DNA of 42,094 nucleotides. Source: Desulforhopalus sp. Lineage in GTDB: Bacteria > Desulfobacterota > Desulfobulbia > Desulfobulbales > Desulfocapsaceae. Positions 1,959 through 16,955 of the stretch are shown one piece after another (positions within the stretch are counted from its first letter, which is position 1; every line of letters starts with the position of its first letter). Under the pieces are notes generated by a model. That model was not told the DNA's origin. It searched no databases and worked only from the letters and a program-made list of their open reading frames with translations. The position numbers and the translations under genes were made by a program. Location: contig JANJUM010000084.1 in the NCBI GenBank assembly GCA_024710585.1, forward strand, positions 1-42,094. Direction: 5' to 3'.

Positions 1959-2402
1959 ATGCCTAACGTCAAAAATCTAAAGAGAAAACTTCTTATTACC
2001 TGCGAAGGTTTCACCCTTATCGAACTCCTGGTGGTGGTGATCATTCTCGGGTTATTGGCGTCATTGGTGGCGCCGAAGTTTTTCGGCAAGCTCGATAAGA
2101 GCAAGCAGATGGTGGCCAAGGCGCAGATAGAGTTGTTCAGCAGCGCCCTGGACAGCTTCAGGCTTGATAACGACCGCTACCCCTCAACCTCGGAGGGCTT
2201 GGCTGCCTTGCGAAAAAACGTCAATACTCTGGCAAAATGGTCAGGTCCCTATCTCCCCAAGGAGATTCCCCAGGACCCATGGGGGAGGGGGTATACCTAC
2301 CGCAGCCCGGGGGAGCATGGCGACTATGACCTCTTTAGTCTTGGTGCTGATGGCGTTGAAGGGGGCGAGGGTGAAAACGGCGATGTGGTCAGCTGGAAGT
2401 AA
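1959..2402 (+). CDS. gspG: Type II secretion major pseudopilin GspG
   Basis: 147 residues. A short basic leader ends in Gly before FTLIELLVVVIILGLLASLVAPKFF, the prepilin-peptidase site (cleavage between G and F, Glu at +5) and hydrophobic pilin helix. The C-terminal part (QDPWGRGYTYRSPGEHGDYDLFSLGADG) is the GspG core with acidic residues that bind calcium in this family. GspG polymerises into the periplasmic pseudopilus that pushes substrates through the secretin. It opens the operon and is followed 21 bases later by gspE. The ribosome site is poor, and no better ATG lies downstream. Confidence 0.95.
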   Translation: MPNVKNLKRKLLITCEGFTLIELLVVVIILGLLASLVAPKFFGKLDKSKQMVAKAQIELFSSALDSFRLDNDRYPSTSEGLAALRKNVNTLAKWSGPYLPKEIPQDPWGRGYTYRSPGEHGDYDLFSLGADGVEGGEGENGDVVSWK

Positions 2403-2423
2403 CCTCTGCTCAAGGCATTGTCG

Positions 2424-3977
2424 ATGAACGGAAGCGAGGTGCGATTTGCCGACTTTCCCCAGCAGCCGCCGAAGGTTGAAGGGTTGACGCCCAAACTGAT
2501 GAAGCGCTGGAAAGTAGTGCCTTTTGGCTGTGATGACGATAAGGTATCTCTCGCCGTTGCCGAAATGCCAGACCTGTTTTTTCTCGATGTGCTCGTTTCT
2601 CTTTTGGGTAAAGAGGTTCAGTGCCGTCCGACACGCGTCGAGGACCTCAACCGTATTCTTTATCGCTGGTATGAAGAGGAAGACGAACTCACCTCCGAAG
2701 AGAACGGGACGAGCGCCGATCATCTCGATATCTGGGAGGATCCGCAACGGTTGCGAAACCAGGCCTCGGAGGAGCCGGTAATCAAGCTGGTTGACGAAAT
2801 CATCGTCAGCGCGCTCGAACGCTCTGCTTCTGACATTCACTTCGAGCCGTTTCGCGAGCAATTCACTATCCGCTATCGCATCGATGGCGTGCTGCACGAC
2901 ACGCAGCGCCAGATACCGGCGACATATCAGCCGGCGGTCATTTCTCGCCTCAAGTTGATGGCGCGCATGAAGATCGATGAACGGCGCCTACCCCAGGACG
3001 GCCGCATCCGCTTTCTCGGTCCGCATGGGCCGATCGATATCCGCGTCTCCAGCGTGCCGACCCAGTTTGGCGAGAGCATGGTCTTGCGTTTGCTCGGCCA
3101 CGAGGAGGTGAAGCTCGATTTTACCTCGCTCGGCATGCCATTGCTGGTGAAGAGTGCCTTTCGCAGGGCCATTTCCAGATCCTATGGGCTGGTGCTGGTA
3201 ACCGGGCCGACCGGCAGCGGCAAGACCACGACCCTGTACACCGCCATTAACAGTCTCAACGCCCCAGACAAAAAAATTCTCACCATCGAGGACCCTGTAG
3301 AATATCAACTGCAGGGGATCAACCAGATCCAGGTCAAACCGAAGATCGGTCTCAGCTTCGCCTCGGCATTGCGCTCCTTTCTGCGCCAGGATCCAGATGT
3401 CATTCTGGTCGGCGAGATACGCGACGCAGAAACCGCCGAGATCGCCATCCATGCGGCACTTACCGGGCATCTGGTGTTCTCCACTCTCCATACTAACGAT
3501 TCGGCCGGGGCAATCACACGACTTCAGGAAATGGGAGTCGAGCCGTATTTGCTGACCTCTTCCCTGTTGGGCGTCATGGCGCAGAGACTGGTGCGGCGAA
3601 TTTGCCCGCAATGCGCGCGGGCTCGACCTTTTTCGAGCGAGACCATCCAGTATCTGCAGGATATCGTCGGACAAGGCGGCGAGGTGCCGACCGAGGAGCG
3701 GCGTGGAGATGGATGCGAGTTGTGCGGGCGCCGAGGGTATCGTGGCCGCACCGGGCTCTATGAATGGATGGAGATGTCCGACGACATTCGACAATTCGTG
3801 CTCAAACGTGCGGATAGCATGTCCATAAGCCGCGTAGCACAGTCTCAAGGCATGATTACGCTGTTGCAGTCTGGTATTGCCAAGGTTGCCGAAGGGTTGA
3901 CGACGTTTGAGGAGGTCCTCAGGGTTGCCAATGTTGCCGGGCAAGGTGCAGTGACAATAGTGGAGCCCTGCGAGTGA
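2424..3977 (+). CDS. gspE: Type II secretion ATPase GspE
   Basis: 517 residues from ATG 2424 (AAGG eight bases upstream); the track start is TTG 2418. This is the cytoplasmic hexameric motor that powers pseudopilus assembly. Visible elements in order: a short N-terminal MshEN-like region, the second N-domain (SDIHFEPF), Walker A GPTGSGKT near residue 261, Asp box TIEDPVEY, Walker B VILVGEIRD, His box STLHTND, and the four-cysteine zinc site CPQC...CELC near residues 394-435 that marks the GspE/PilB class. All key residues are intact. The stop overlaps the gspF GTG by four bases, so the two are translationally coupled. Confidence 0.96.
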   Translation: MNGSEVRFADFPQQPPKVEGLTPKLMKRWKVVPFGCDDDKVSLAVAEMPDLFFLDVLVSLLGKEVQCRPTRVEDLNRILYRWYEEEDELTSEENGTSADHLDIWEDPQRLRNQASEEPVIKLVDEIIVSALERSASDIHFEPFREQFTIRYRIDGVLHDTQRQIPATYQPAVISRLKLMARMKIDERRLPQDGRIRFLGPHGPIDIRVSSVPTQFGESMVLRLLGHEEVKLDFTSLGMPLLVKSAFRRAISRSYGLVLVTGPTGSGKTTTLYTAINSLNAPDKKILTIEDPVEYQLQGINQIQVKPKIGLSFASALRSFLRQDPDVILVGEIRDAETAEIAIHAALTGHLVFSTLHTNDSAGAITRLQEMGVEPYLLTSSLLGVMAQRLVRRICPQCARARPFSSETIQYLQDIVGQGGEVPTEERRGDGCELCGRRGYRGRTGLYEWMEMSDDIRQFVLKRADSMSISRVAQSQGMITLLQSGIAKVAEGLTTFEEVLRVANVAGQGAVTIVEPCE

Positions 3978-5179
3978 CACGATATTCCTATGAGGCGATC
4001 GATGACGCTGGGCAAAAGGTGCGTGGCAGTGAGGAGGCCCTCGGCCGGGAAGAACTGATCGATAGCCTGCGCGAACGAAAGATGTTCCCCCTGGTTATCC
4101 GCAAGGTCGAGGCGGGGCGATGGCGCTTCCGGTTTTCCCGGGAAAAACGCGTATCGCATGACGACCTGCTCTTTCTGACCAGAGAGTTGGCTACACTGCT
4201 AAGCAAGGAAGTCTCCCTGGAAAGGGCGGTGTCGATCGTTGCCAGCAGTTGCGGCCACGAGGGGGTCTCGCGGCTGATGGCCGACATCAACCGTGTCCTG
4301 CATGGCGGCAACACCTTCAGCCAAGCCCTCCATGGGCATGCCAGTCTGTTCTCGAGGTTCTATGTCAGCATGATCCAGGTTGGCGAGGAGGGTGGCGTGC
4401 TCTCCGTGGTCATGCATCGTCTTGCACTCTATCTCGAGCGTCATCGACAAGTACGCGACGCCATCGTCAAGGCCTCAATTTATCCTGCCTTTCTCGTCTT
4501 GTTCAGCGGTTTGTCAGTGTTGGCACTGGTGTTTTTCGTCGTTCCCAAATTCGCGCAGATTTTTCAGGATCTCAACCAGCCCTTGCCGTTGCCCACCCAG
4601 GTACTTGCTGACTGCAGTGCGTTTCTTGGCCAGTGGTGGTGGCTTGTCTTGGGCGTGCTTGCAGTTGTGTGGCTGGCGGGGGCTCGCTGGTGTCGTAGCG
4701 AGATAGGCAAGGTGACCTGGAGCCGATGGTCACTTCGCTTGCCCTTGCTTGGACGATTGTACCACCTCATGGAACTGGCCACGTTTGCCAGGGCGATGGG
4801 AACGCTCATGGAAAGTGGTGTGCCCATTCTGCGCGGACTGGCCCTGGCTGGAGAGATAAGCGATAATGCCGTCGTCCGCAGGTCGATAGATGGCCTGTAT
4901 CAGCAGGTGCGTAAGGGAAGGTCCTTGAGCCTGGCTATGCGCGACGATCCATTCTTCCCCCCTCAGGTGGTGCATCTGACGGCCATAGGCGAGGAGGTTG
5001 GCAGCAGTGGACAGATGCTGCTCCAGTTGGCCGACGATGTCGAGACCAAATTGGAGCACGAGATCAAAATGTTGCTGGCGCTGATCGAGCCAGTGACCAT
5101 CGTCCTCATGGGCTTGATGATCGGTGGGATCATTATCGCCATGCTGCTGGCCATTTTCAGTATCAATGACTTGCAGTAG
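3974..5179 (+). CDS. gspF: Type II secretion inner-membrane platform protein GspF
   Basis: 401 residues starting at GTG in a GTGA overlap with the gspE stop. Two tandem T2SSF domains are visible (about residues 66-190 and 265-390), each with the family pattern (LLFLTRELATLLSKEVSLERA; LATFARAMGTLMESGVPILRGL), separated by hydrophobic helices and ended by a final membrane helix (MLLALIEPVTIVLMGLMIGGIIIAMLLAIF). It is the multi-pass platform on which GspE acts. Length is normal for the family. A gap of about 140 bases to the next gene may hold an internal promoter; TATTAT at 5257-5262 is a possible -10, without a good -35. Confidence 0.95.
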   Translation: MTRYSYEAIDDAGQKVRGSEEALGREELIDSLRERKMFPLVIRKVEAGRWRFRFSREKRVSHDDLLFLTRELATLLSKEVSLERAVSIVASSCGHEGVSRLMADINRVLHGGNTFSQALHGHASLFSRFYVSMIQVGEEGGVLSVVMHRLALYLERHRQVRDAIVKASIYPAFLVLFSGLSVLALVFFVVPKFAQIFQDLNQPLPLPTQVLADCSAFLGQWWWLVLGVLAVVWLAGARWCRSEIGKVTWSRWSLRLPLLGRLYHLMELATFARAMGTLMESGVPILRGLALAGEISDNAVVRRSIDGLYQQVRKGRSLSLAMRDDPFFPPQVVHLTAIGEEVGSSGQMLLQLADDVETKLEHEIKMLLALIEPVTIVLMGLMIGGIIIAMLLAIFSINDLQ

Positions 5180-5319
5180 ATCTGACTTTTTACTGAAGTA
5201 TCATATTGAATATCTAAATCTGAACAAAAGCCTTCCATTCCAACAAGTAAATCTGCTATTATGCCACCTGTAAATGGTCAGGTAGGTCAATTCTTTATGC
5301 CGGATTGAGGCGTAACGTG

Positions 5320-7104
5320 ATGCGGAATCTTGTTGGACTTCATTGTTCTGTATGTGGGTTGCTGCTCGCTGCTGCACTGGCCTTTTTGCCATCCTGGCTT
5401 TTGGCTGAGGCACTTAGCGAGGCCACTTCCGAGGTAGCAGTCAACGGGGAAGCGACTGACGCACAAGGGTCGTCCTGTACGCTGATCCGTAAGGGCCGCA
5501 AAATCGTCAGACCCATGCTGGTTCAAAGCTTGAGCCAGTTTGGCGCGGCGGTTGCCATCGATGGGCCCTTTGCAGCTATTGGTGCCAGAGGAGAGGATGG
5601 GGGAAGTGGCTCACTTTATGTTTTTCAGGAGGGCGATGGGCGGTGGCGACAAGAAGCCCGGCTCAAGGAAGGGCAAGAAGGACGCGACAACCTCCTCGGA
5701 GCGGCAATCGCAGTTTCTGGCAACCTGATGGTTGCCGGTGCTCCTCGAGCGACGGTGAACGGCCTTGTCGACGCCGGGACTGTCTCACTTTTCACGCTCG
5801 ATGCAGGCGGCCTGTGGCGACAAACCGCCCGATTGACAGCAGATGAGCCTGGTTCTTCCGACCATTTCGGCATGGCCGTGGGGGTGTGGAAAAACAGCGT
5901 CATCGTCGGGGCCTGGAACGATAATGAAAGGGGAGAGGCAGCTGGGTCGGCGCACATCTTTGTCCAGGATGGTCACGGATGGTGGAATCATGCGGCCAAA
6001 TTGGTTCCGGCACAGGTCAGTGAAGAAGGCGGACCTGAGCAGACTGCGCCGGTGACTGCTGCCGTCGAAGAAGGCGCGGTTCCGGTCTCGTCGGTTCCCC
6101 AGCAATTTGGTTTGGCAGTGGCCATTGGCAAGGACTTCGCTCTGGTGGGGGCGCCGCGGCTTTCTGGCACGGTCCAGCAGCAAGCTGTCGAAGCGGGGGC
6201 AGTCTATGTTTTTGATAAAACAGGCCAGACCTGGACGCAGTCACACATTCTCCAACCCTCAGAGAAATCGTCTGGAGATGGCTTCGGGGCGTCCATCGCT
6301 GTTTGGGACGGATTTGCCATTATCGGATCTCCAGGCGACGACAGCCTGGGCCGCGACTCCGGAGCAGCCTATATCTTCAAGAAGAGTGGAAATTCCTGGT
6401 CGCAGGTTGCGCGTCTCACCGCGGCCGATGCTTCTGCCGGCGATCGCTTTGGAGTTTCTGTAGCGATGTACGGCAGCCACGTGGCAGTTGGTGCTATCGG
6501 CCACGACGGCGTCGGCGTCAACGCTGGCATGACCTACATTTTCGAAGGACTTGGCTCTGCATGGGAACAAAAGCTGCGAGTCAGCCCGGGCTTCCCCTCC
6601 GATGGCCAGAAGATGGGCATTGCCGTGGCGCTCAGTTCGAGACAGTTGCTCACTGGGTCCGATCCTGACGATTTTCTTCACCTTCCCGAGCAAGTCTATG
6701 ATTTTCCCTTATCGCCGCTCATCCGAGCGGAAAAAACTCTCTATGATTTTGGCATGGTGCCACCGGAATCGGAATCCGAGGAAGTGGAAATATTCCTGGA
6801 TAACCCGGGGGAACAGGCCACGACTATCGCCGGTATTTCTCTTTCTTCGGGCGATATCGGCGCCTTTGCAATCGTCAAGGATCGGTGCTCCGAGAAAAAG
6901 CTCAAGCCGGGCAGGCAATGCCGCATTGTCGCTCGCTTTACTCCCGACGTCGTCGGCTACTATGAGGCTTTGCTGACGGTGACTTCAGACCAATGCCTTG
7001 CCCTCGACATACCCCTCCGAGGAGTTGGCGCGAGTCCGGGCTACAGTATGAGCGCGGGGGATGATGGTGCCGTCGAGGAATTGTCATGGCCTCCAGGGCG
7101 CTAG
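5320..7104 (+). CDS. Exported FG-GAP beta-propeller protein with C-terminal Ig-like domain, inside the secretion operon
   Basis: 594 residues from ATG 5320 (GAGG nine bases upstream; the track start is TTG 5305). A signal peptide (LLLAAALAFLPSWLLAEA) is followed by about six or seven repeats of the integrin-alpha/FG-GAP type, each with a phrase like FGxAVAxxGxxAxxGA, then GxxYxF and a trailing W. Examples are FGAAVAIDGPFAAIGARGED, FGMAVGVWKNSVIVGAWND and FGVSVAMYGSHVAVGAIGHD. From about residue 475 comes an Ig-like choice-of-anchor-D/SPD-2 type domain (LYDFGMVPPES...CRIVARFTPDVVGYYEALLTVTSD). It is not a known Gsp component. Its place between gspF and gspH, with a 19-base overlap into gspH, suggests a dedicated substrate or surface accessory of this system; that is inference. 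Confidence 0.85.
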   Translation: MRNLVGLHCSVCGLLLAAALAFLPSWLLAEALSEATSEVAVNGEATDAQGSSCTLIRKGRKIVRPMLVQSLSQFGAAVAIDGPFAAIGARGEDGGSGSLYVFQEGDGRWRQEARLKEGQEGRDNLLGAAIAVSGNLMVAGAPRATVNGLVDAGTVSLFTLDAGGLWRQTARLTADEPGSSDHFGMAVGVWKNSVIVGAWNDNERGEAAGSAHIFVQDGHGWWNHAAKLVPAQVSEEGGPEQTAPVTAAVEEGAVPVSSVPQQFGLAVAIGKDFALVGAPRLSGTVQQQAVEAGAVYVFDKTGQTWTQSHILQPSEKSSGDGFGASIAVWDGFAIIGSPGDDSLGRDSGAAYIFKKSGNSWSQVARLTAADASAGDRFGVSVAMYGSHVAVGAIGHDGVGVNAGMTYIFEGLGSAWEQKLRVSPGFPSDGQKMGIAVALSSRQLLTGSDPDDFLHLPEQVYDFPLSPLIRAEKTLYDFGMVPPESESEEVEIFLDNPGEQATTIAGISLSSGDIGAFAIVKDRCSEKKLKPGRQCRIVARFTPDVVGYYEALLTVTSDQCLALDIPLRGVGASPGYSMSAGDDGAVEELSWPPGR

Positions 7105-7589
7105 ATGCGCCCATGCTTCCGTCAGGAAAGCGAGGGCAGGACCTGCCCGGGGGGCAACACGGTTTCACGCTGCTCGAACTGCTGGTGGTCGTTGCCCTTC
7201 TGGCGATGGCGGTGGGCCTGGTTGCAGTTGCAGTCTCCTCGGGAATCCATGGTGTTCGAGAGCGCAATGTGCAAACGCACATGTACAGCGCATTGCAGCA
7301 TGCACGTGTCAAGGCAATGAATTCACGCAGGAATATCCGCTTCGTCATTGACGGAAGAAAACGGGTGTTTTTCTTCGAAGGCGGGGAGGTTCATGGTATT
7401 CCGGAATCGGTACAGGTTGAAGGTGGAAGGCTTCAGGACTTTTCCCCATCATTGAGAGGGTTGACGTTTTATCCAGATGGTTCCTCCTCCGGAGGCATTC
7501 TTACGCTCAGTCCTCCGACCGGAGCAGTGTGCGAGTTGGAAATCGATCGAGTGTTCGGCCTCGTCGCTCTCACCACGGGGAACCGATGA
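7086..7589 (+). CDS. gspH: Type II secretion minor pseudopilin GspH
   Basis: 167 residues. The prepilin site is GGQHG-FTLLELLVVVALLAMAVGLVAVAV (G before F, Glu at +5), with a leader of about 26 residues that is longer than usual. GAGG seven bases before ATG 7086 supports the start, although the Met at 7113 would give a more normal leader. The C-terminal part (VQVEGGRLQDFSPSLRGLTFYPDGSSSGGILTL) is the GspH beta domain, including the F-P-dG-S-s-G-g signature. It sits beneath the pseudopilus tip. The gene overlaps the end of the beta-propeller gene and is joined to gspI by an ATGA overlap. Confidence 0.9.
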   Translation: MASRALDAPMLPSGKRGQDLPGGQHGFTLLELLVVVALLAMAVGLVAVAVSSGIHGVRERNVQTHMYSALQHARVKAMNSRRNIRFVIDGRKRVFFFEGGEVHGIPESVQVEGGRLQDFSPSLRGLTFYPDGSSSGGILTLSPPTGAVCELEIDRVFGLVALTTGNR

Positions 7590-8002
7590 CGGTGCCTTGG
7601 CGTCGGCGTTTTGGCTCCGAGGGTTTCACCCTTTTCGAGGTGCTGGCGGCAACCGCATTGGCGGGGGTGTTTCTCGCTCTTTGCTTTGTCGGTTTCAGCC
7701 AGGAAAAAAGAAGACTTTATCGGGCCGAGCAGACGCAAGCCACGACCAATGTATTGCGCTACGCTCTAAGAGTTTTGGATCAAAAAGATCTGCAAGGGCG
7801 GTTACCTACAGTCATCGAAATGCCTCGGGACTTGGCAACCTGGCGGGTTACGGTCGAGCATGGGCAGTGCCCAGTGTTTTTGGGAGAAGGTGCCGAGGGA
7901 GCGAGGTTGGTGCCACTTGCAGGTTATATGCAGAGAGCGGTGGTGATTCAATCCCCCGATGGGCGACGCTACCTCTTGCGCCGCCTTGTTGAGAACCAAT
8001 GA
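7586..8002 (+). CDS. gspI: Type II secretion minor pseudopilin GspI
   Basis: 138 residues. I start it at ATG 7586 (ATGA overlap with gspH) instead of the track's upstream 7529. A short leader ends in EG before FTLFEVLAATALAGVFLALCFVGF, the type IV pilin cleavage and helix motif with Glu at +5. Identification as GspI instead of another minor pseudopilin rests mainly on position (H-I-J-K), size and the FTLFEVLAA start. GspI forms the initiating tip complex with GspJ and GspK. Its stop overlaps the gspJ ATG by four bases. Confidence 0.85.
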   Translation: MTVPWRRRFGSEGFTLFEVLAATALAGVFLALCFVGFSQEKRRLYRAEQTQATTNVLRYALRVLDQKDLQGRLPTVIEMPRDLATWRVTVEHGQCPVFLGEGAEGARLVPLAGYMQRAVVIQSPDGRRYLLRRLVENQ

Positions 8003-8763
8003 AGATGGGGCGAAATATCGGCTTTACCCTGCTGGAACTGCTGGTTGCGTTGACTCTTGCGGAATTGTTGATTGTTTTGCTCAGCCTTTCTTTGCGTTCA
8101 GGCTTGGTTTCGTGGATGGAACTGCGCAAGAACAATCAGCGTGTCATGCCGCAGCGCGCCGTCGAGGCTTTGCTCAATCGACAATTGCGGGCGGCCGTGC
8201 TCCCCAATACCCAGCAGGTTGGAAGCCCTCAGGTTTTTGTCGGGAGCAAAGAGAGCCTGGTCTTTACCACGAGTCATGCTTCCATGGGCAGTGAAGCGGC
8301 AGGGGTGATTCTGGTCGTATACACGCAGGACAGAGCGGGGTCGGATCTGTTGTATGCACAGCGGGTGCTGACGCGCACCTCGCAATTGACTGAAGTATTG
8401 CCAGTCGAACTGACAGTGGAGAGTCTGCCGGCAATGCGCGCGAAAGGGTGGGAAACAGCACGGATCAGCTCTGCAGGCGAGGTGCGCTTCGCCTTTCAAG
8501 GGCCTGAAGAGGCCGGGGAAGGTTCTCCTGAACGATGGCAAGAGCTCTGGCAGGACAGAGGGGGCGCGCCGTTAGCGGTGGCGATGCGGTGGCGTGACAC
8601 GAGAAATGGCAGACAGAGTGAAGAGCCATGGCGGATATTCGCTGTGGCCCCATTCCAATATTCTCGCGAAGAGGTCGCAATGCCTACCAAGGCAGGCGCT
8701 TTTGATGGCTTGGTAGGGGAAATTGATGGCAAAAGCAACCAGGCTGGAGTGCCGGTGCAATAG
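7999..8763 (+). CDS. gspJ: Type II secretion minor pseudopilin GspJ
   Basis: 254 residues in an ATGA overlap with gspI. A short leader MKMGRNIG precedes FTLLELLVALTLAELLIVLLSLSL, a canonical prepilin site. The family pattern of a long periplasmic domain follows, with an early basic helix (RAVEALLNRQLRAAVLPN) and an LVFTTSHASMG strand region typical of GspJ. It is somewhat longer than many GspJ proteins. It works with GspI and GspK at the pseudopilus tip, and its stop overlaps the next start by one base. Confidence 0.9.
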   Translation: MKMGRNIGFTLLELLVALTLAELLIVLLSLSLRSGLVSWMELRKNNQRVMPQRAVEALLNRQLRAAVLPNTQQVGSPQVFVGSKESLVFTTSHASMGSEAAGVILVVYTQDRAGSDLLYAQRVLTRTSQLTEVLPVELTVESLPAMRAKGWETARISSAGEVRFAFQGPEEAGEGSPERWQELWQDRGGAPLAVAMRWRDTRNGRQSEEPWRIFAVAPFQYSREEVAMPTKAGAFDGLVGEIDGKSNQAGVPVQ

Positions 8764-9863
8764 TGAGGTGTACCTGCAAGCACCTTGCCTTCTTCTGCCA
8801 AAAGGGACAGCAGCAGGGTACTGTCATGGTGTTGGTCCTCTGGGTCATCGCCATGCTCTCCTCAGTGGCGATGCTGTACGGTGTCGCAGTTCGTGGCCGC
8901 TATCATGCTGAGGTTTATGCCTTGAACGATATGGAGGATATGGAGGCCATCGCCTCGCTGGCACTCGTGGTGCACCGACAACTTACGTTTTCTTCTTTCG
9001 ATACAGCCCAGGAGGGATCTCGCCATGGCTTTCAACTGCGAACGCAAGCATACCTCGCTGACCGGCAAGTGGGGGCGGAGCGGCCCTTGTGGACGGAGAG
9101 CAGCGAGGAGATGATGGGTCGAATCATTCCGGATGGGCGTGTCTACAAGGTGAAGATCGCAGACCGTCAGTACAGGCTCTCCGTGGAAGCGGAACAGGGG
9201 AAAGTGGATCTCAACGCAGTTCAAGAGGCATTCCTTCACCAGTTGTTGCGATGGTTGCAAGGGCGAAACGCAAGAGAAGGCGATGCGTTGGCAGACTGCC
9301 TGCTGGATTGGCGTGACAGTGACAATCTGGTCCGCCTGTCTGGTGCCGAGGAAGAGGCATATAGGCGCGCCGGTCTGGTCCAAGTCCCCGCTGACGGGCC
9401 CTTTGCCAGCGTCGATGAAATGCGTCTGGTCCTGGGAATGACCCCGCAACTCTACTTCGGACCTCTCGGCCAGGGCAGGGGGAAAGAGGTCGTCGAGCGG
9501 TGGGATGGCGGTTTGCGGGATCTCTTTACAGTCTACAATGGCACTGCTGATGTACTGCTAGATTACGCTCCGCCACCTCTCAGGGCGTTTTATGAAGACT
9601 TGGCCGCTATCGGTGGGGCGGAAGGGTTGGCAGAGACCGAGAGGGGAAAATCGCCACCTTTCCCCCGGCCTCCTTTCGCAGAAAAATCCATGGGGCAGAC
9701 GACTGGAAACGGTGAGTCCGCGAGGGTAGTGCTGCTTAAGGTGGACACGGGCCATGCCGCGTACCGGGTGTGGTTGCGCGTCAATGAAGGGAGCGTCTCC
9801 CCGAAGATACTCAGGGTGGAGGAAGATATGCATGCGATGATGGCAAGGCATGTTCAGAAATGA
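8763..9863 (+). CDS. gspK: Type II secretion tip pseudopilin GspK
   Basis: 366 residues from GTG 8763, one base overlapping the gspJ TAG. The leader ends QKGQQQG before TVMVLVLWVIAMLSSVAMLYGVAV; the Glu at +5 found in other pseudopilins is absent, as is usual for GspK. The large periplasmic part contains the SAM-like helical region (KVDLNAVQEAFLHQLLRWL, LADCLLDWRDSDNLVRLSGAEEEAYRRAG, FASVDEMRLVLGMTPQLYFGPLG), the GspK hallmark. It caps the pseudopilus. Its end overlaps the gspL start by 14 bases. Confidence 0.93.
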   Translation: MRCTCKHLAFFCQKGQQQGTVMVLVLWVIAMLSSVAMLYGVAVRGRYHAEVYALNDMEDMEAIASLALVVHRQLTFSSFDTAQEGSRHGFQLRTQAYLADRQVGAERPLWTESSEEMMGRIIPDGRVYKVKIADRQYRLSVEAEQGKVDLNAVQEAFLHQLLRWLQGRNAREGDALADCLLDWRDSDNLVRLSGAEEEAYRRAGLVQVPADGPFASVDEMRLVLGMTPQLYFGPLGQGRGKEVVERWDGGLRDLFTVYNGTADVLLDYAPPPLRAFYEDLAAIGGAEGLAETERGKSPPFPRPPFAEKSMGQTTGNGESARVVLLKVDTGHAAYRVWLRVNEGSVSPKILRVEEDMHAMMARHVQK

Positions 9864-11217
9864 AATCCTCGGGCTTGCCTGCTTGGGAGACAGAATTGAA
9901 AGCTGTCTTCTGATAAAACAGGGGAAACGCGCTGATGGGCCCTCCTGGGGGGCCGATCAGCTCCGCTCGCAAACCCTGGAGGTGCATGAACACAGAGAGG
10001 AAGCCGAGGTCTTGCGGCAGATACTGTCGCCGCTTGCGCCTTCCCGTCGTCGAGCGATCTGCTTGGGAATTGGGCGACGTCACTACCTGATGCGTGAGAT
10101 TCCTTGCCCTGGTTGCACTATAGAAGAAGCCATCGCCAGTATTCGTTTGTCACTTGATTATTATCTGCCGCTCCCCTGTGATGATGTCTACTGCGACCTG
10201 CTTGCCAAGCAGTGTAATGGAGTGGCCAACGTTCAACTGTACTGGGTGGAAAGAAGATACGTCGATGCCTTGGTTGCGGCTCTTCAAACAACTGGACATA
10301 TTCGTTCGCTGGTGACCGTTGCCCCCCTCTGCTGTGGCCTTGACCTGTATCTTCGCAGTTGTGGCCAGGAACACCTGCCGGGGTCATTGGTGTCAATGCA
10401 GACGCAGCTTCCCGTGGTGACCTTTCATGCCACTACGGAGTTCGCTGGGTCACTGCCGTTACGACTCGATTCGCAACAACGGCCGAAATTGGACCTGCCG
10501 TCCCTGGGAATGAAAATGGCCGAGACCATTGCCTTGCCGTTACGGATTCTCGGTATGCGGGGGGGGAACACTCATTTGCCGGCTCCACTTCAGCAATCCC
10601 TGGAAGAGGCCTTTCCTGATCAGGCCCTTATGTCCAGTTGCCTTCTCAATGTTGAGAATTGGGGTCAATGTGCGGCGATGCTGGCCTTTTCGGGCTCCAC
10701 GATGCCGCATTTTCATCCTGGCAAGCGAAGGGTGTGGCGAGAGGCTGGCGGCAAATTGCTTTTGAGCCTGACCGTCGTTGTGTTGCTCGCTGTGCTGGCC
10801 ATGGCCGCCTGTAATGGCTGGGAGTCAAGAGCCTTGCGCGAAAAGGCCGAAGAGCTTGAGGTCGATGCAAAGAGAGCACAGCAGAGGTATGCGCTGCTGG
10901 CATCCTCCGAAAAGGAACTTTTGGATATAAAGAAGCTCTACGACGATGTCAGCGCTTTCCGCATCGATTGCGTGGAATTGCTCGAGGCCTTGAAAAGTCT
11001 TGCCGAACAGACCCCAGCAACCACCTGGGTGCAGGGTTTGCAACAGAACGAAAGGAACGTGACCGTCGAGGTGGTTGGGACGGGAGCAGCCGACATCCTC
11101 GAGATATGGGGTAAAAATCCATATGTTGCGGGGGTTCGATTGGCGTCTCAGGTTAACAAGGATCGAGATGGCAAGGAGCATTTCCGCGTTGAGTTCCAAC
11201 TCCAGCGTGGGGAGTGA
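9850..11217 (+). CDS. gspL: Type II secretion GspL-like (PilM/PilN-type) inner-membrane protein
   Basis: 455 residues. The N-terminal 290 or so residues have the divergent actin-like (PilM) fold pattern expected of cytoplasmic GspL: RRRAICLGIGRRHYLMREIP, EEAIASIRLSLDYYLPLPCDDVYCDL, then a shuffled later half. One membrane helix lies at about 302-322 (LLLSLTVVVLLAVLAMAACNGW). It is followed by a coiled coil (LREKAEELEVDAKRAQQRYALLASSEKELLDIKKLY) and a ferredoxin-like domain (TWVQGLQQNERNVTVEVVGTG). The layout resembles a PilM-PilN fusion. It couples GspE to the periplasmic assembly. gspM starts seven bases after its stop. Confidence 0.88.
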   Translation: MFRNEILGLACLGDRIESCLLIKQGKRADGPSWGADQLRSQTLEVHEHREEAEVLRQILSPLAPSRRRAICLGIGRRHYLMREIPCPGCTIEEAIASIRLSLDYYLPLPCDDVYCDLLAKQCNGVANVQLYWVERRYVDALVAALQTTGHIRSLVTVAPLCCGLDLYLRSCGQEHLPGSLVSMQTQLPVVTFHATTEFAGSLPLRLDSQQRPKLDLPSLGMKMAETIALPLRILGMRGGNTHLPAPLQQSLEEAFPDQALMSSCLLNVENWGQCAAMLAFSGSTMPHFHPGKRRVWREAGGKLLLSLTVVVLLAVLAMAACNGWESRALREKAEELEVDAKRAQQRYALLASSEKELLDIKKLYDDVSAFRIDCVELLEALKSLAEQTPATTWVQGLQQNERNVTVEVVGTGAADILEIWGKNPYVAGVRLASQVNKDRDGKEHFRVEFQLQRGE

Positions 11218-11223
11218 CGAGAG

Positions 11224-11805
11224 ATGATCGGCGCAGTTCGGTTGCTTGTCCAACGTTTGCAGCACGTGAGCAACAGCCCGGTGATTTTTTTTGGTATCCC
11301 CCTGGCTTGTGTGCTGATGACGGTCAGATATCTCTACCTGCCGTCTGCAGGCGTCAATGATGAGCTCGCCCAGGTCATAGCGGCGCGAGAATCGAATATC
11401 GCTAAACTCAATGAGAAAACGAGGGAGATCCATGCCCGACTCGAAGGCAGGGAGGAGTGGGAGCAAAAGATGGCGATGATGGCAGGCCGAGGTGTCGATG
11501 GTGAAAGCCGGGAATCAGCAAATAGCCAGCTGGCGCGCCTGGTCACCGAATCCTGCACAAGCGCTGGCATGTCTGTTGTGAGCTACAACGGAGTCACGCC
11601 AAAGCAGTGGGAGGGAAGAGACCTCCTCGGGGTCAGTGTATCCATGGAGGGAAAAACCGAGAATCTCGTCGCCTTGCTGACACAGATACGCGAAAAGCTG
11701 CCGGATAGTCGCCTGCAATCCTTGCAGATTCAGAACGTTGATGTAGAGGCCTCGCGCCTGACCATACAGTTGGAGTTACATGCACTCTATTTCCCTCGTC
11801 GTTGA
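11224..11805 (+). CDS. gspM: Type II secretion GspM/PilO-like inner-membrane protein
   Basis: 193 residues. A short cytoplasmic stretch precedes a single membrane helix (SPVIFFGIPLACVLMTVRYLYL, about 18-40). Then come a coiled coil (VIAARESNIAKLNEKTREIHARLEGREEWEQKM) and a ferredoxin-like domain (LARLVTESCTSAGMSVVSY, LVALLTQIREKLPDSRLQSLQIQ). This is the shared architecture of GspM and PilO, which pair with GspL or PilN. The assignment rests on topology plus its place after gspL, because the primary sequence is poorly conserved in this family. Confidence 0.8.
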   Translation: MIGAVRLLVQRLQHVSNSPVIFFGIPLACVLMTVRYLYLPSAGVNDELAQVIAARESNIAKLNEKTREIHARLEGREEWEQKMAMMAGRGVDGESRESANSQLARLVTESCTSAGMSVVSYNGVTPKQWEGRDLLGVSVSMEGKTENLVALLTQIREKLPDSRLQSLQIQNVDVEASRLTIQLELHALYFPRR

Positions 11806-11812
11806 GCACACA

Positions 11813-13882
11813 ATGAATCGTCTTCTTTCTCGTCTTTCCGTGTTCGTCTGTCCCTCGGTCATCAGTGCTTTGATTGTACTGTGGCCATTCTGCCCAGTTC
11901 TTGCCCAGGATGAACTCGAACCAAAGCCACTTGTCGTCAATCGCGGTCTGGTCATGCCAGCCGACAGGAATCAGGCGAAGCCGGTAAATTTCGTGCTCGA
12001 TGACATGGATATCGAACCCCTGCTCGCCCATATCATCGGTGAAGCGCTTGGCCGCAATTATGTTATCGAACCCGGTATTCAGGGATCCATGTCACTCAAT
12101 ATCAAGGGAAGTTATACCGACGAGCAGCTGATGGAACTGCTCAACGCGGTGTTTCAGCTGCACGGTATTGCCATTGTCGAAGGCGAGAACGGCATGATCA
12201 AAGTGGTCAAGAAAGGGGCAAGTGGTCGCTTTACCAGTGTTTTCGGTGAGGATGGCGGCGGGCGGAAGTCTGTGGGTGACCGAATCAGCGTTTTTCAACT
12301 GTCGTATCTCACTCCGAGCCATGTGGCGCAGATAATTGCCAACTTTGTGTCACCTGGTGCCGTCGTATTGCCCGAAGCAAAGACCAACAGCCTGATCGTT
12401 GTAGATTCACCGGAGGTGTTGCGGAAAATTCGGCAGATAATCAGTATGATGGACACAGATTTCTTCAAGGATCTCTACTGGAACATCTATACGCCTATTT
12501 ATGCCGATGTCGCCGAGTTGACCAAGGACCTCGAAAAGATCTTCAAGGCCAAAGGATTGTACAGTCTTCCTGGAACCGATTCAGGTGGCATTCAGATTAT
12601 GCCGCTTAAAACCATCGGGGGGCTTCTGGTCATCAGCAAATGGCAGAGCGCCCTCGATCTTGTAGGGCATTTCGTCAAGGAACTCGATCGTGGCAACGCC
12701 GGGAAAAGTAGCAAGCTGTATGTCTATACTGTGCAAAATAATAGTGCCGAAAATATCGCCAAGATGTTGACGGAGATCTTTGGCGACGAGAGTGCCAAGA
12801 CGCCTAAAGGGGAAGAACGAAAGGTGGTGGTCAAGAGAGCCGAGATGCCAGAAGCCCAATCTGAAGAGGAGACTGGGGATGTCGAGTTGAGTGGCGACGT
12901 CAGATTCATTCCCAATCAGGACTTGAATCTCTTGCTGGTAAAAGCATCTCCACGGGATTATGCCATAATCAACGATATTATCGAGAAACTCGATATCTTG
13001 CCGCGACAGGTGATGATCGATGTGATCATCGTCGATGTCAAACTGAATGACGGCATGGAATATGGCATTCAGTGGCTGCTCAAGCAGAAAAAAATAACTC
13101 TTAATGGGGACCGATATTCCTCCGATGTCGCGCTGTCTTTCCCCAGCGAGCTTGGGAATCTTGAAAAAGACACGCTTCTCGGCAAAGGTTTGTCGGGCTT
13201 GACCTATGGCCTGTTCGATTCTGCCGGAGATCTGGCAGGTCTGATTCGACTCATAGCGAGCAAGACGGACACCAATTTGCTGGCGTCCCCCAACATCCTC
13301 GCGGTGGACAACAAGGAGTCAACCATCGAGGCGGGGGAAGAGGTGCCCACCAAAACCGGCGAGACGACCACCGCCACTGGTTCGACGACGCAATCGATCC
13401 AGTACCGGCAAACCGGCTTTATCCTCAAGGTCAAGCCATCGATCAACGACAGTGGTGTCGTTCGCCTGGAAGTCACGCAAGAATACAGCGAAGTTTCCAG
13501 TCGGGATACCGGCGGCGCCGAGTCTCCGGCATTTATAAAGCGGAAGGCGGCAACCAATCTCGTCGCCCATGATGGCCAGACCGTGGTGATCGGCGGGCTG
13601 ATCAAACAGACACAAAACGCAGTCAGCGCAGGCATTCCGTACTTACAGGATATCCCTGTGCTTGGCTATCTCTTTGGCGGCAGTCAGGTCTCAAAGGATA
13701 AGAGCGAACTTCTCATCGCCATCACCCCCCATGTTATCCGCAGCAAGGAACAGGTCGATGATCTCACCGCTCAGTTCGTAGGCCGTGTCAAGGCGCTGAA
13801 GGATGTTATCGAAGAGGCCAAAGGCGCAAAAGCGTCACCATCGACAGATGGTGACGGGGCAGTGCCAAAGGAAGAACGATGA
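11813..13882 (+). CDS. gspD: Type II secretion outer-membrane secretin GspD
   Basis: 689 residues from ATG 11813, which places a signal peptide (VISALIVLWPFCPVLAQ) at the N terminus; the track start 11780 lies inside gspM. In order: N0 (VNFVLDDMDIEPLLAHIIGEALGRNYVIEPGIQG), N1 (ISVFQLSYLTPSHVAQIIANFVSPGAVVLPEAKTNSLIVVDSP), N2 and N3 (VYTVQNNSAENIAKMLTEIFG; VRFIPNQDLNLLLVKASP), and the secretin barrel from about residue 395 (QVMIDVIIVDVKLNDGMEYGIQW; TNLLASPNILAVDNKESTIEAGEEVP; VVIGGLIKQTQ; IPVLGYLFGG). It forms the outer-membrane gate. No lipobox or obvious pilotin partner is visible. It is unusual in lying near the operon's end instead of next to gspC at the start. Confidence 0.95.
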   Translation: MNRLLSRLSVFVCPSVISALIVLWPFCPVLAQDELEPKPLVVNRGLVMPADRNQAKPVNFVLDDMDIEPLLAHIIGEALGRNYVIEPGIQGSMSLNIKGSYTDEQLMELLNAVFQLHGIAIVEGENGMIKVVKKGASGRFTSVFGEDGGGRKSVGDRISVFQLSYLTPSHVAQIIANFVSPGAVVLPEAKTNSLIVVDSPEVLRKIRQIISMMDTDFFKDLYWNIYTPIYADVAELTKDLEKIFKAKGLYSLPGTDSGGIQIMPLKTIGGLLVISKWQSALDLVGHFVKELDRGNAGKSSKLYVYTVQNNSAENIAKMLTEIFGDESAKTPKGEERKVVVKRAEMPEAQSEEETGDVELSGDVRFIPNQDLNLLLVKASPRDYAIINDIIEKLDILPRQVMIDVIIVDVKLNDGMEYGIQWLLKQKKITLNGDRYSSDVALSFPSELGNLEKDTLLGKGLSGLTYGLFDSAGDLAGLIRLIASKTDTNLLASPNILAVDNKESTIEAGEEVPTKTGETTTATGSTTQSIQYRQTGFILKVKPSINDSGVVRLEVTQEYSEVSSRDTGGAESPAFIKRKAATNLVAHDGQTVVIGGLIKQTQNAVSAGIPYLQDIPVLGYLFGGSQVSKDKSELLIAITPHVIRSKEQVDDLTAQFVGRVKALKDVIEEAKGAKASPSTDGDGAVPKEER

Positions 13883-13926
13883 AAGTGCGCCTGTTGTTTG
13901 CGGGGGTTTCCTTTTGGCAACAATGA
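13879..13926 (+). CDS. Possible 15-codon coupling peptide between gspD and gspC
   Basis: An ATG at 13879 overlaps the gspD TGA by an ATGA, reads MKVRLLFAGVSFWQQ and stops at a TGA that itself overlaps the gspC ATG (13923) by another ATGA. The arrangement would hand ribosomes from gspD to gspC without a gap. It may have no function beyond coupling, and it could be chance. Confidence 0.3.
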   Translation: MKVRLLFAGVSFWQQ

Positions 13927-14741
13927 AAAAGCAATCATTTCTGGGGTGCTGGGAGATGCTGAAGGGGGCCTTGGCATGGCGCTTGGCATCTCGTGCGCTG
14001 GTCTTGCTGGTCTGTTCGATGTTCTGGCCGGAGCTCAACAAGTGTCTGGCCCAGGAAGATTTCAGCAGTATCTACAGTAAGGATCTGTTTTCCCCGCAAC
14101 GTCGCCAGGCTCCCGTTGCCCAGCCAGATGTACTTCCTGAGCCTTTTCCACCTCCGCAAGAAGCACAGAATACCATCGTGTTGCGCGGCATTGTCGAAAT
14201 CGGTGGGGTGCGACGTGCTTGTCTGACCTTGCAGGATGGGACTCGCTCTGCTCAGGCCTTGTCCCCGTCCGGAGAAAACACCACGGTGCTTGGAAGAGGC
14301 GAAACAACTGGGCGTTGGGTGGTCGAAAAGGTGCAAGAACGTTCGGTCGAACTCGTCGACAAGGGCGGGCAACGACTTCACCTGTCCATTTACGATGTCA
14401 AGACTCAGGGAACGAAGGCGAAGGGGAAAAAGCAGGCGGTGGGGCTGTTGACCAAACCGGATATGCCGCCACCTCCCCCCATCATACACTCCGCGCCAGC
14501 ACAGACTCAAGAAGGATCGAGTGTTCAAGTTGAAGGCGAGACTCCTGCTGCACCTGAGGCAACGACGCACAATCACTCTCGAGAAGAAGAAAGCCTGGCC
14601 GAGGAAATCAGCCGCCAGCAGGTGACGAAGGGAAGAAAGCTGCGCGGGGGGGATGGCAACAAACGACGTGAAGGGCTGTCCGGCTCGCCAGCACCACCCC
14701 CGATTCCCTCAGAACTCTATCGCACGACATCGAAGGAATAG
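13923..14741 (+). CDS. gspC: Type II secretion GspC/PilP-like periplasmic linker protein
   Basis: 272 residues from ATG 13923; the track's earlier start is inside gspD. A hydrophobic N-terminal anchor (LASRALVLLVCSMFWPELNKCLAQ) is followed by DFSSIYSKDLFSPQRR and an HR-like beta domain (IVLRGIVEIGGVRRACLTLQDGTRSA, GRGETTGRWVVEKVQERSVELVDKGGQRLHLSIYD). This matches the homology region shared by GspC and PilP that binds the secretin N0 domain. There is no PDZ domain; the C-terminal 110 residues are low-complexity, charged and proline-rich. It closes the operon directly after gspD. The GspC name is by position and domain, not by full-length similarity. Confidence 0.75.
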   Translation: MKKQSFLGCWEMLKGALAWRLASRALVLLVCSMFWPELNKCLAQEDFSSIYSKDLFSPQRRQAPVAQPDVLPEPFPPPQEAQNTIVLRGIVEIGGVRRACLTLQDGTRSAQALSPSGENTTVLGRGETTGRWVVEKVQERSVELVDKGGQRLHLSIYDVKTQGTKAKGKKQAVGLLTKPDMPPPPPIIHSAPAQTQEGSSVQVEGETPAAPEATTHNHSREEESLAEEISRQQVTKGRKLRGGDGNKRREGLSGSPAPPPIPSELYRTTSKE

Positions 14742-15828: not shown

Positions 15829-16335
15829 CTATCGTTGAGGAACGAAGGAAAAGGTGATGACACAACGCGAATCACCGTTGACCAGGCTTTCCACTATGGA
15901 ATGCACCGGCTCGAGCCTGAGCGCTTTCATGACGCCGTTACGTATTGCCTGACAGCCGCAGGCATATCCCTTCGTCATATTGGCAATTTGCAGCGAATCA
16001 AAGGCGTTGCACTGTTGTCCGATCCAGGTCGCCTTGTCGCCGTCGATGGTTATCGGCTCATGAACGTACATGTCATCAAAGAAGCAGTTCGCCCAGATCT
16101 TTCTGAAGATGGCAACCAGGTCTTGGATGTTCTCCGGCTTCTGTATCTGGCCGGATTTCAGTAACATCAGGGTGTATTTTCTAAAAAAGAGCTCATTTGC
16201 CTGGATGTTCAGCCTGTTGGCGCGCTCTTCCCCCAGTTCTCTGACTGCGGTTGCATGCCAGTAGGAGTCATGCAGCCACCAGAGTTTCTTGAGAGTATTC
16301 ATCTCCTCGGTTGTTCCCACGTCGGCATCGCTCAT
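15829..16335 (-). CDS. DUF6125-like protein of unknown function
   Basis: 168 residues from ATG 16335, in an ATGA overlap with the TetR stop and with GGAG seven bases upstream. Conserved-looking blocks are LWWLHDSYWHATAVRELGEERANRLNIQANELFFRKYT near the N terminus and GYACGCQAIRNGVMKALRLEPVHSIVESLVNGDSRCVITFSF near the C terminus, with three cysteines in the latter half. The texture resembles DUF6125 and the L-2-amino-thiazoline-4-carboxylate hydrolase-like group; I hold this loosely. No signal peptide or membrane helix. Coupled to the repressor, it is probably the first controlled gene. Confidence 0.6.
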   Translation of the reverse strand: MSDADVGTTEEMNTLKKLWWLHDSYWHATAVRELGEERANRLNIQANELFFRKYTLMLLKSGQIQKPENIQDLVAIFRKIWANCFFDDMYVHEPITIDGDKATWIGQQCNAFDSLQIANMTKGYACGCQAIRNGVMKALRLEPVHSIVESLVNGDSRCVITFSFVPQR

Positions 16336-16955
16336 ATCAATCTCCACTCGGCATCGTTATCGATCTTTTTCGGCAGTGTCATAAGAAGCGCTTCAACCTG
16401 GGACAAGGCCTGCTCCATATAGCCCTCATCGCCGGTTGCCCTGGTCATGGCGTATCCGCCTTCGACAAGACAAATCAGCACCCGGGCGGTATTTTCCGCA
16501 TTGCTGTTTCTTGCAAACTCGCCGCTCTCGATGCCTTCCTCAACCAGAGAAACGATGGCACGTTTCCACTCGTCGATCGCCGCACGCACCACTGCCTGCA
16601 GTTGGTCGTTGACATCGCCGCTATCGATGGCGGTGTTGACGATCGGGCAACCGCCGGATTGTATGACCTGCCGGTAAATGATCCGGAAGGTGTTTGGGTA
16701 GGCGAGGAGCTTTTCAAGATAGGTGCGTCCTGCAATGATATTTTCCTTCAGTCGATCTTTGATAAAGGAAAGGTTGTGTTCGAAGGCGAGGACGGCAAGC
16801 TCGTCTTTGTTCGCGAAATTGCCGTAAATGGCTCCTTTGCTCAACCCGGTGGTGTCGGTCAGGTCTTTCAGACTGGTGGCGGCATAGCCCTTGCGGTTGA
16901 AGACCGGGGCCACCTGCTGGATGATGAAGTCTTTGGTTCGTTCTGCTTTGCCCAT
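16332..16955 (-). CDS. TetR/AcrR-family transcriptional repressor
   Basis: 207 residues. The N-terminal helix-turn-helix is clear: RTKDFIIQQVAPVFNRKGYAATSLKDLTDTTGLSKGAIYGNFANKDELAVLAFEHN, a textbook TetR domain. The C-terminal region (about 60-200) is the ligand-binding half; it contains CPIVNTAIDS and VICLVEGGYAMTRATGD, typical of the TetR_C group found with acyl-CoA or redox pathways. A near-perfect inverted repeat sits nine bases before its ATG, so it probably represses its own operon with the DUF6125-like, thioesterase and DUF2834-like genes. Confidence 0.93.
   Translation of the reverse strand: MGKAERTKDFIIQQVAPVFNRKGYAATSLKDLTDTTGLSKGAIYGNFANKDELAVLAFEHNLSFIKDRLKENIIAGRTYLEKLLAYPNTFRIIYRQVIQSGGCPIVNTAIDSGDVNDQLQAVVRAAIDEWKRAIVSLVEEGIESGEFARNSNAENTARVLICLVEGGYAMTRATGDEGYMEQALSQVEALLMTLPKKIDNDAEWRLI

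Follow-up and report, generated by a model that had tools for sequence, protein, structure and literature searches.

A seven-repeat FG-GAP gene inserted between gspF and gspH of a horizontally acquired type II secretion operon in Desulforhopalus: a candidate lineage-specific cargo

A stretch of 42,094 nucleotides from Desulforhopalus sp. (assembly GCA_024710585.1, contig JANJUM010000084.1, positions 1 to 42,094; hereafter the window) was found to carry a type II secretion system (T2SS) operon with an additional gene, an open frame of 594 aa on the + strand (5320-7104), between gspF and gspH. A sequence-only reading of the window had described an exported-type FG-GAP protein with an Ig-like tail at this place, overlapping gspH, and this description was confirmed by the frame, the Pfam matches, and the neighboring genes. 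We favor, at about even confidence, the interpretation that the inserted gene is a lineage-specific cargo gene within a horizontally acquired T2SS operon. This would be the simplest reading, because a predicted propeller and Ig protein with a signal peptide is coupled to the minor pseudopilins of an imported T2SS. Overall, the locus joins known parts in a new arrangement, and the place of the gene is unusual and not conserved.

Operon layout and the junctions around the inserted gene

The operon has the order gspG-E-F-X-H-I-J-K-L-M-D-C, X being the inserted gene (Table 1). Its membership in the T2SS family follows from GspG and GspD, both of which exceed curated equivalog cut-offs; E, F, K, L, and M were identified by profile, H, I, and J partly so, and C by position only. 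No Pfam or NCBIfam match and no PDZ domain were found in the gspC/N-like protein. The C-terminus of GspF reads FSINDLQ, versus FGINDVxF in the sister lineage.

Table 1. Features of the T2SS operon and of the inserted gene (positions in the window)
Feature	Position	Strand	Evidence
gspG, major pseudopilin, first gene of the operon	1959..2402	+	TIGR01710, 167.3 bits (cut-off 88.85)
gspE, T2SS ATPase	2418..3977	+	TIGR02533, 572 bits (slightly under the equivalog cut-off of 630)
gspF, inner-membrane platform protein	3974..5179	+	PF00482; TIGR02120, 373 bits; C-terminus
AT-rich gap between gspF and the inserted gene, 37% GC	5180..5319	.	Composition; possible promoter
Inserted gene: signal peptide, predicted seven-bladed FG-GAP beta-propeller, VesB-type Ig domain	5320..7104	+	Frame, Pfam, NCBIfam, Foldseek, reading by eye
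Predicted Sec-type signal peptide, about residues 1-32	5320..5415	+	Sequence by eye and hydropathy
Seven FG-GAP_2 repeats, predicted to form one complete propeller	5521..6681	+	PF14312; repeats by eye; Foldseek
HYDIN/VesB/CFA65-type Ig-like (ASH / choice-of-anchor-D-like) domain	6718..6993	+	PF22544, 30.8 bits (cut-off 25.5)
gspH, minor pseudopilin	7086..7589	+	PF12019 and PF07963; GAGGA 5' of ATG
gspI, minor pseudopilin; start overlaps gspH stop	7586..8002	+	N-methylation motif below cut-off; sequence
gspJ, minor pseudopilin	7999..8763	+	Profile searches; gene order in relatives
gspK, pseudopilus tip protein	8763..9863	+	PF21687
gspL (PilM/PilN-like)	9850..11217	+	PF05137; gene order in relatives
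gspM	11224..11805	+	PF10741 (T2SSM_b)
gspD, secretin	11780..13882	+	TIGR02517, 407 bits (cut-off 351)
gspC/N-like protein	13803..14741	+	Position, HR-like region

The two ends of the inserted gene are joined to the operon in different ways. At its 5' end there is no overlap with gspF, and since 140 bp of AT-rich DNA separate the two genes, the inserted gene may have its own promoter; a search of this gap gave no promoter site above chance, and a scan for Pho-box-like sites was likewise at chance level. Other possible in-frame starts are a GTG at 5317 and a TTG at 5305. At its 3' end the gene overlaps gspH by 19 bp (7086-7104), and both a GAGGA Shine-Dalgarno-like site and the ATG of gspH lie within it. 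Translation of gspH thus appears to be tied to the inserted gene, and, because the gspH ribosome-binding site is within that gene, the putative cargo and the minor pseudopilins are probably made together.

Domains of the inserted protein and a putative route of export

In the predicted signal peptide, residues 9-29 are hydrophobic and are followed by an AEA-like cleavage site (by eye and hydropathy); the sequence contains no lipobox. The C-terminal tail (GASPGYSMSAGDDGAVEELSWPPGR) is without a hydrophobic segment, and no NCBIfam tail model, whether GlyGly-CTERM or another sorting tail, matched the protein. With no membrane anchor or sorting signal visible and no adhesive ligand site known, the earlier proposal of a surface adhesin displayed by the system goes beyond the evidence.

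The propeller region matched FG-GAP_2 (PF14312) above the cut-off with an E value of 1.7e-59 and five significant stretches, while seven repeats were counted by eye, one of them degenerate at the first strand. Seven is the blade number of the integrin-type propeller. A single-sequence AlphaFold model of the inserted protein was moderate (mean pLDDT 52), and its propeller part matched integrin alpha and Kelch propellers in Foldseek (E about 1e-8). Taken with the model, the seven repeats are predicted to form one seven-bladed beta-propeller. Other FG-GAP_2 proteins similarly combine seven repeats with a signal peptide, and seven are present in the relatives L236 and L237 as well; those that we read were, however, standalone or very large, none was in a T2SS operon, and their acidic loops were less degenerate than those of the inserted protein. 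Genome G385 encodes two very large proteins (L240 and L241; about 3500-3700 residues each) in which FG-GAP_2 repeats are numerous.

The Ig-like domain was recognized less strongly. When the whole protein was searched, PF22544 scored 26.8 bits (E 6.4e-6), only just over the cut-off, and the NCBIfam choice-of-anchor-D model matched the same domain below its own cut-off. Modelled alone, the domain had a mean pLDDT of 37; it contains three Cys. Searching the PDB by sequence with the inserted protein returned only chance-level matches. In a genome-wide profile search, the genome was found to have one FG-GAP gene and one VesB-type-Ig gene, both being the inserted gene; that the only gene of either kind is in a T2SS operon was counted in favor of the cargo reading.

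Domains of this kind have a published link to T2SS export. In Vibrio cholerae, the VesB Ig-fold directs T2SS export when grafted on beta-lactamase, and its action depends on the EpsC (GspC) PDZ domain; in PulA and PelI, too, domains of the Ig/Fn3 type bear on T2SS recognition (PMC12369372). VesB and the inserted protein share a C-terminal Ig-like domain of PF22544, VesB being exported and the inserted protein predicted to be so. VesB is, however, a serine protease that ends in a GlyGly-CTERM tail and requires the PDZ domain of EpsC (PMC12369372); none of these features was found here. Since PF22544 occurs far beyond T2SS cargo, being present also in control genomes and in proteins unrelated to T2SS, the precedent shows a resemblance in domain type and does not amount to proof. 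Furthermore, the published Ig-to-GspC-PDZ mechanism cannot apply as such, because no PDZ domain was found in the GspC-like protein.

A precedent for the position of the gene is Psp of Pseudomonas fluorescens SBW25, a DING protein that is encoded directly beside a second T2SS (Hxc) and exported by it (PMC2225411). Like the inserted protein, Psp has a signal peptide, and its gene directly follows that of a GspF homologue, hxcS, in the same orientation. In contrast, Psp binds phosphate, and psp lies at the edge of its cluster with its own promoter, whereas the gene studied here is within the operon and encodes a predicted propeller with an Ig domain (PMC2225411). A literature search for work joining FG-GAP and T2SS found no relevant paper.

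Under the favored cargo reading, the inserted protein would be exported to the periplasm by Sec and would fold there, possibly with disulfides formed from the three Cys of the Ig domain. The operon's own T2SS would then carry the folded protein out of the cell. Like the Ig-fold of VesB in V. cholerae, the Ig domain may contribute to recognition, although not via a GspC PDZ domain. Outside the cell, the propeller would bind a ligand. Of the earlier suggestion that the protein is the main cargo of the system, we retain cargo as the best reading, given the signal peptide, the predicted foldable propeller with its VesB-type Ig domain, the operon position, and the published precedent, while "main" exceeds the evidence.

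Origin of the operon and a second T2SS in the genome

The GspF encoded by the operon was at most 39% identical to GspF proteins within its own order and 42-47% identical to those from another class of the phylum, and in the tree it fell in a clade with that class (support 99/99). A second GspF in the genome, on contig C189 with GspG, GspK, and GspD as neighbors, grouped with its own order. These comparisons indicate that the operon was acquired horizontally and that the genome keeps an ordinary T2SS elsewhere. Because the branch of the window's GspF is long, the donor is not among the sampled genomes.

We considered a misbinned contig as the source of the foreign T2SS and rejected it. The ParC protein of the window is 81% identical to that of congeners, and synteny with them runs from a dCMP-deaminase-like gene, at 17.2 kb, to 31.6 kb; for these reasons the contig belongs to the genome. 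On the other side of the dCMP-deaminase-like gene, the congeners hold different genes and no T2SS. The operon thus sits on an accessory stretch. The left part of the window has a GC content of 40% and reaches the contig end; directly 5' of gspG, two ORFs (406-1980, 40% GC), one of them a DUF2145 gene (PF09916), have a composition sharply unlike that of the operon. Convergent with the operon end is a gene for a TetR-like regulator (16332-16955, - strand; assigned by eye), near a thioesterase gene.

The presence of a second, vertically inherited T2SS (C189) means that this system could be the exporter instead, which was counted against the favored reading. We nevertheless regard it as very unlikely that the inserted protein is cargo of the C189 system rather than of the enclosing one, given the position of its gene and its coupling within its own operon.

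The gspF-gspH junction in related systems and alternative roles

The sequence-only reading had held that canonical gsp operons have nothing between gspF and gspH. This is correct for the sublineage concerned, in which F abuts H and gspG precedes gspE, but the commonest order, seen in several order-level relatives, has gspG between the two. That reading had also suggested a comparison of gene order across relatives for conservation of the gene; when run, the comparison showed the gene to be absent from every readable junction, an outcome that the reading had itself named as speaking against its proposal. The survey covered 38 loci of the nearest T2SS class, of which 34 were readable and four were not informative. 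In 33 of the 34, gspH adjoined gspF, mostly overlapping it. In the remaining one (G285, locus L122), an adenine-deaminase-like ORF (10115-11845, + strand) lies between gspF and gspH, which are both on the - strand, so the same junction received an unrelated gene in another lineage. At two loci (L190 of G638 and L192 of G637), gspF of this lineage is followed by non-T2SS genes in place of gspH, which suggests split or decayed operons. At none of the loci read did the gspF-gspH junction hold an FG-GAP gene, and the inserted gene had no match in any of 14 congeners; it has been found in one genome only. The inserted gene is not a conserved part of the T2SS, and a conserved T2SS accessory was rejected on the basis of this survey.

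Such absence speaks against a pseudopilus accessory that is core or generally required. It is not evidence against a lineage-specific cargo, because the congeners are without a matching T2SS at the locus. With a single genome, there is no conservation to back a function.

The main rival to the cargo reading is that an exported propeller gene landed, as a passenger, at an operon junction that tolerates it, with gspH still translated and no functional link to the T2SS; its product would act in the periplasm or leave by another route. Tolerance of the junction is illustrated by the opposite-strand gene in G285, and the restriction of the inserted gene to one genome fits such an event, as does the finding that none of the 16 other FG-GAP neighborhoods read has T2SS genes, and hence none has a homologue beside a T2SS. 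Nevertheless, the gene is on the same strand as the operon and contains the ribosome-binding site and start of gspH, which suggests adaptation to the operon, and its product has a signal peptide together with a type of domain that is also known in cargo of the T2SS. We consider a passenger possible but on balance unlikely.

An accessory role is another alternative, in which a PilY1-like propeller protein, made with the minor pseudopilins, would sit at the filament tip or prime it. The inserted gene is directly 5' of gspH-I-J-K, and PilY1, a seven-bladed propeller from minor pilin clusters, is a type IV pilus tip adhesin (PMC13190605). The predicted seven-bladed propeller of the inserted protein and the place of its gene beside those of minor pseudopilins recall PilY1 and PilC, which are seven-bladed propellers encoded with minor pilins, but these two belong to another sequence family, carry an N-terminal vWA or DUF4114 domain and a calcium site, and serve the type IV pilus rather than the T2SS. 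A Pfam search of the inserted protein did not return PF05567 (the PilY1 family), and neither a vWA domain nor an EF-hand-like calcium loop was seen in the protein; moreover, the tip protein GspK is present, and the closest operons lack the inserted gene. A genome-wide search with PF05567 was empty, but as the controls were silent too, it carries no weight. We judge the accessory role improbable. More improbable still is a T2SS pseudopilus with the operon-encoded propeller and Ig protein located at its tip or close to it, as a counterpart of PilY1 that would display or deliver an adhesin.

How the T2SS recognizes its cargo is poorly understood, and a cargo candidate that appears translationally coupled to the minor pseudopilins bears on this question. 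If the cargo reading is true, the locus would offer a compact natural test of Ig-domain recognition without PDZ, pairing an Ig domain of the VesB type with a GspC in which no PDZ domain was detected.
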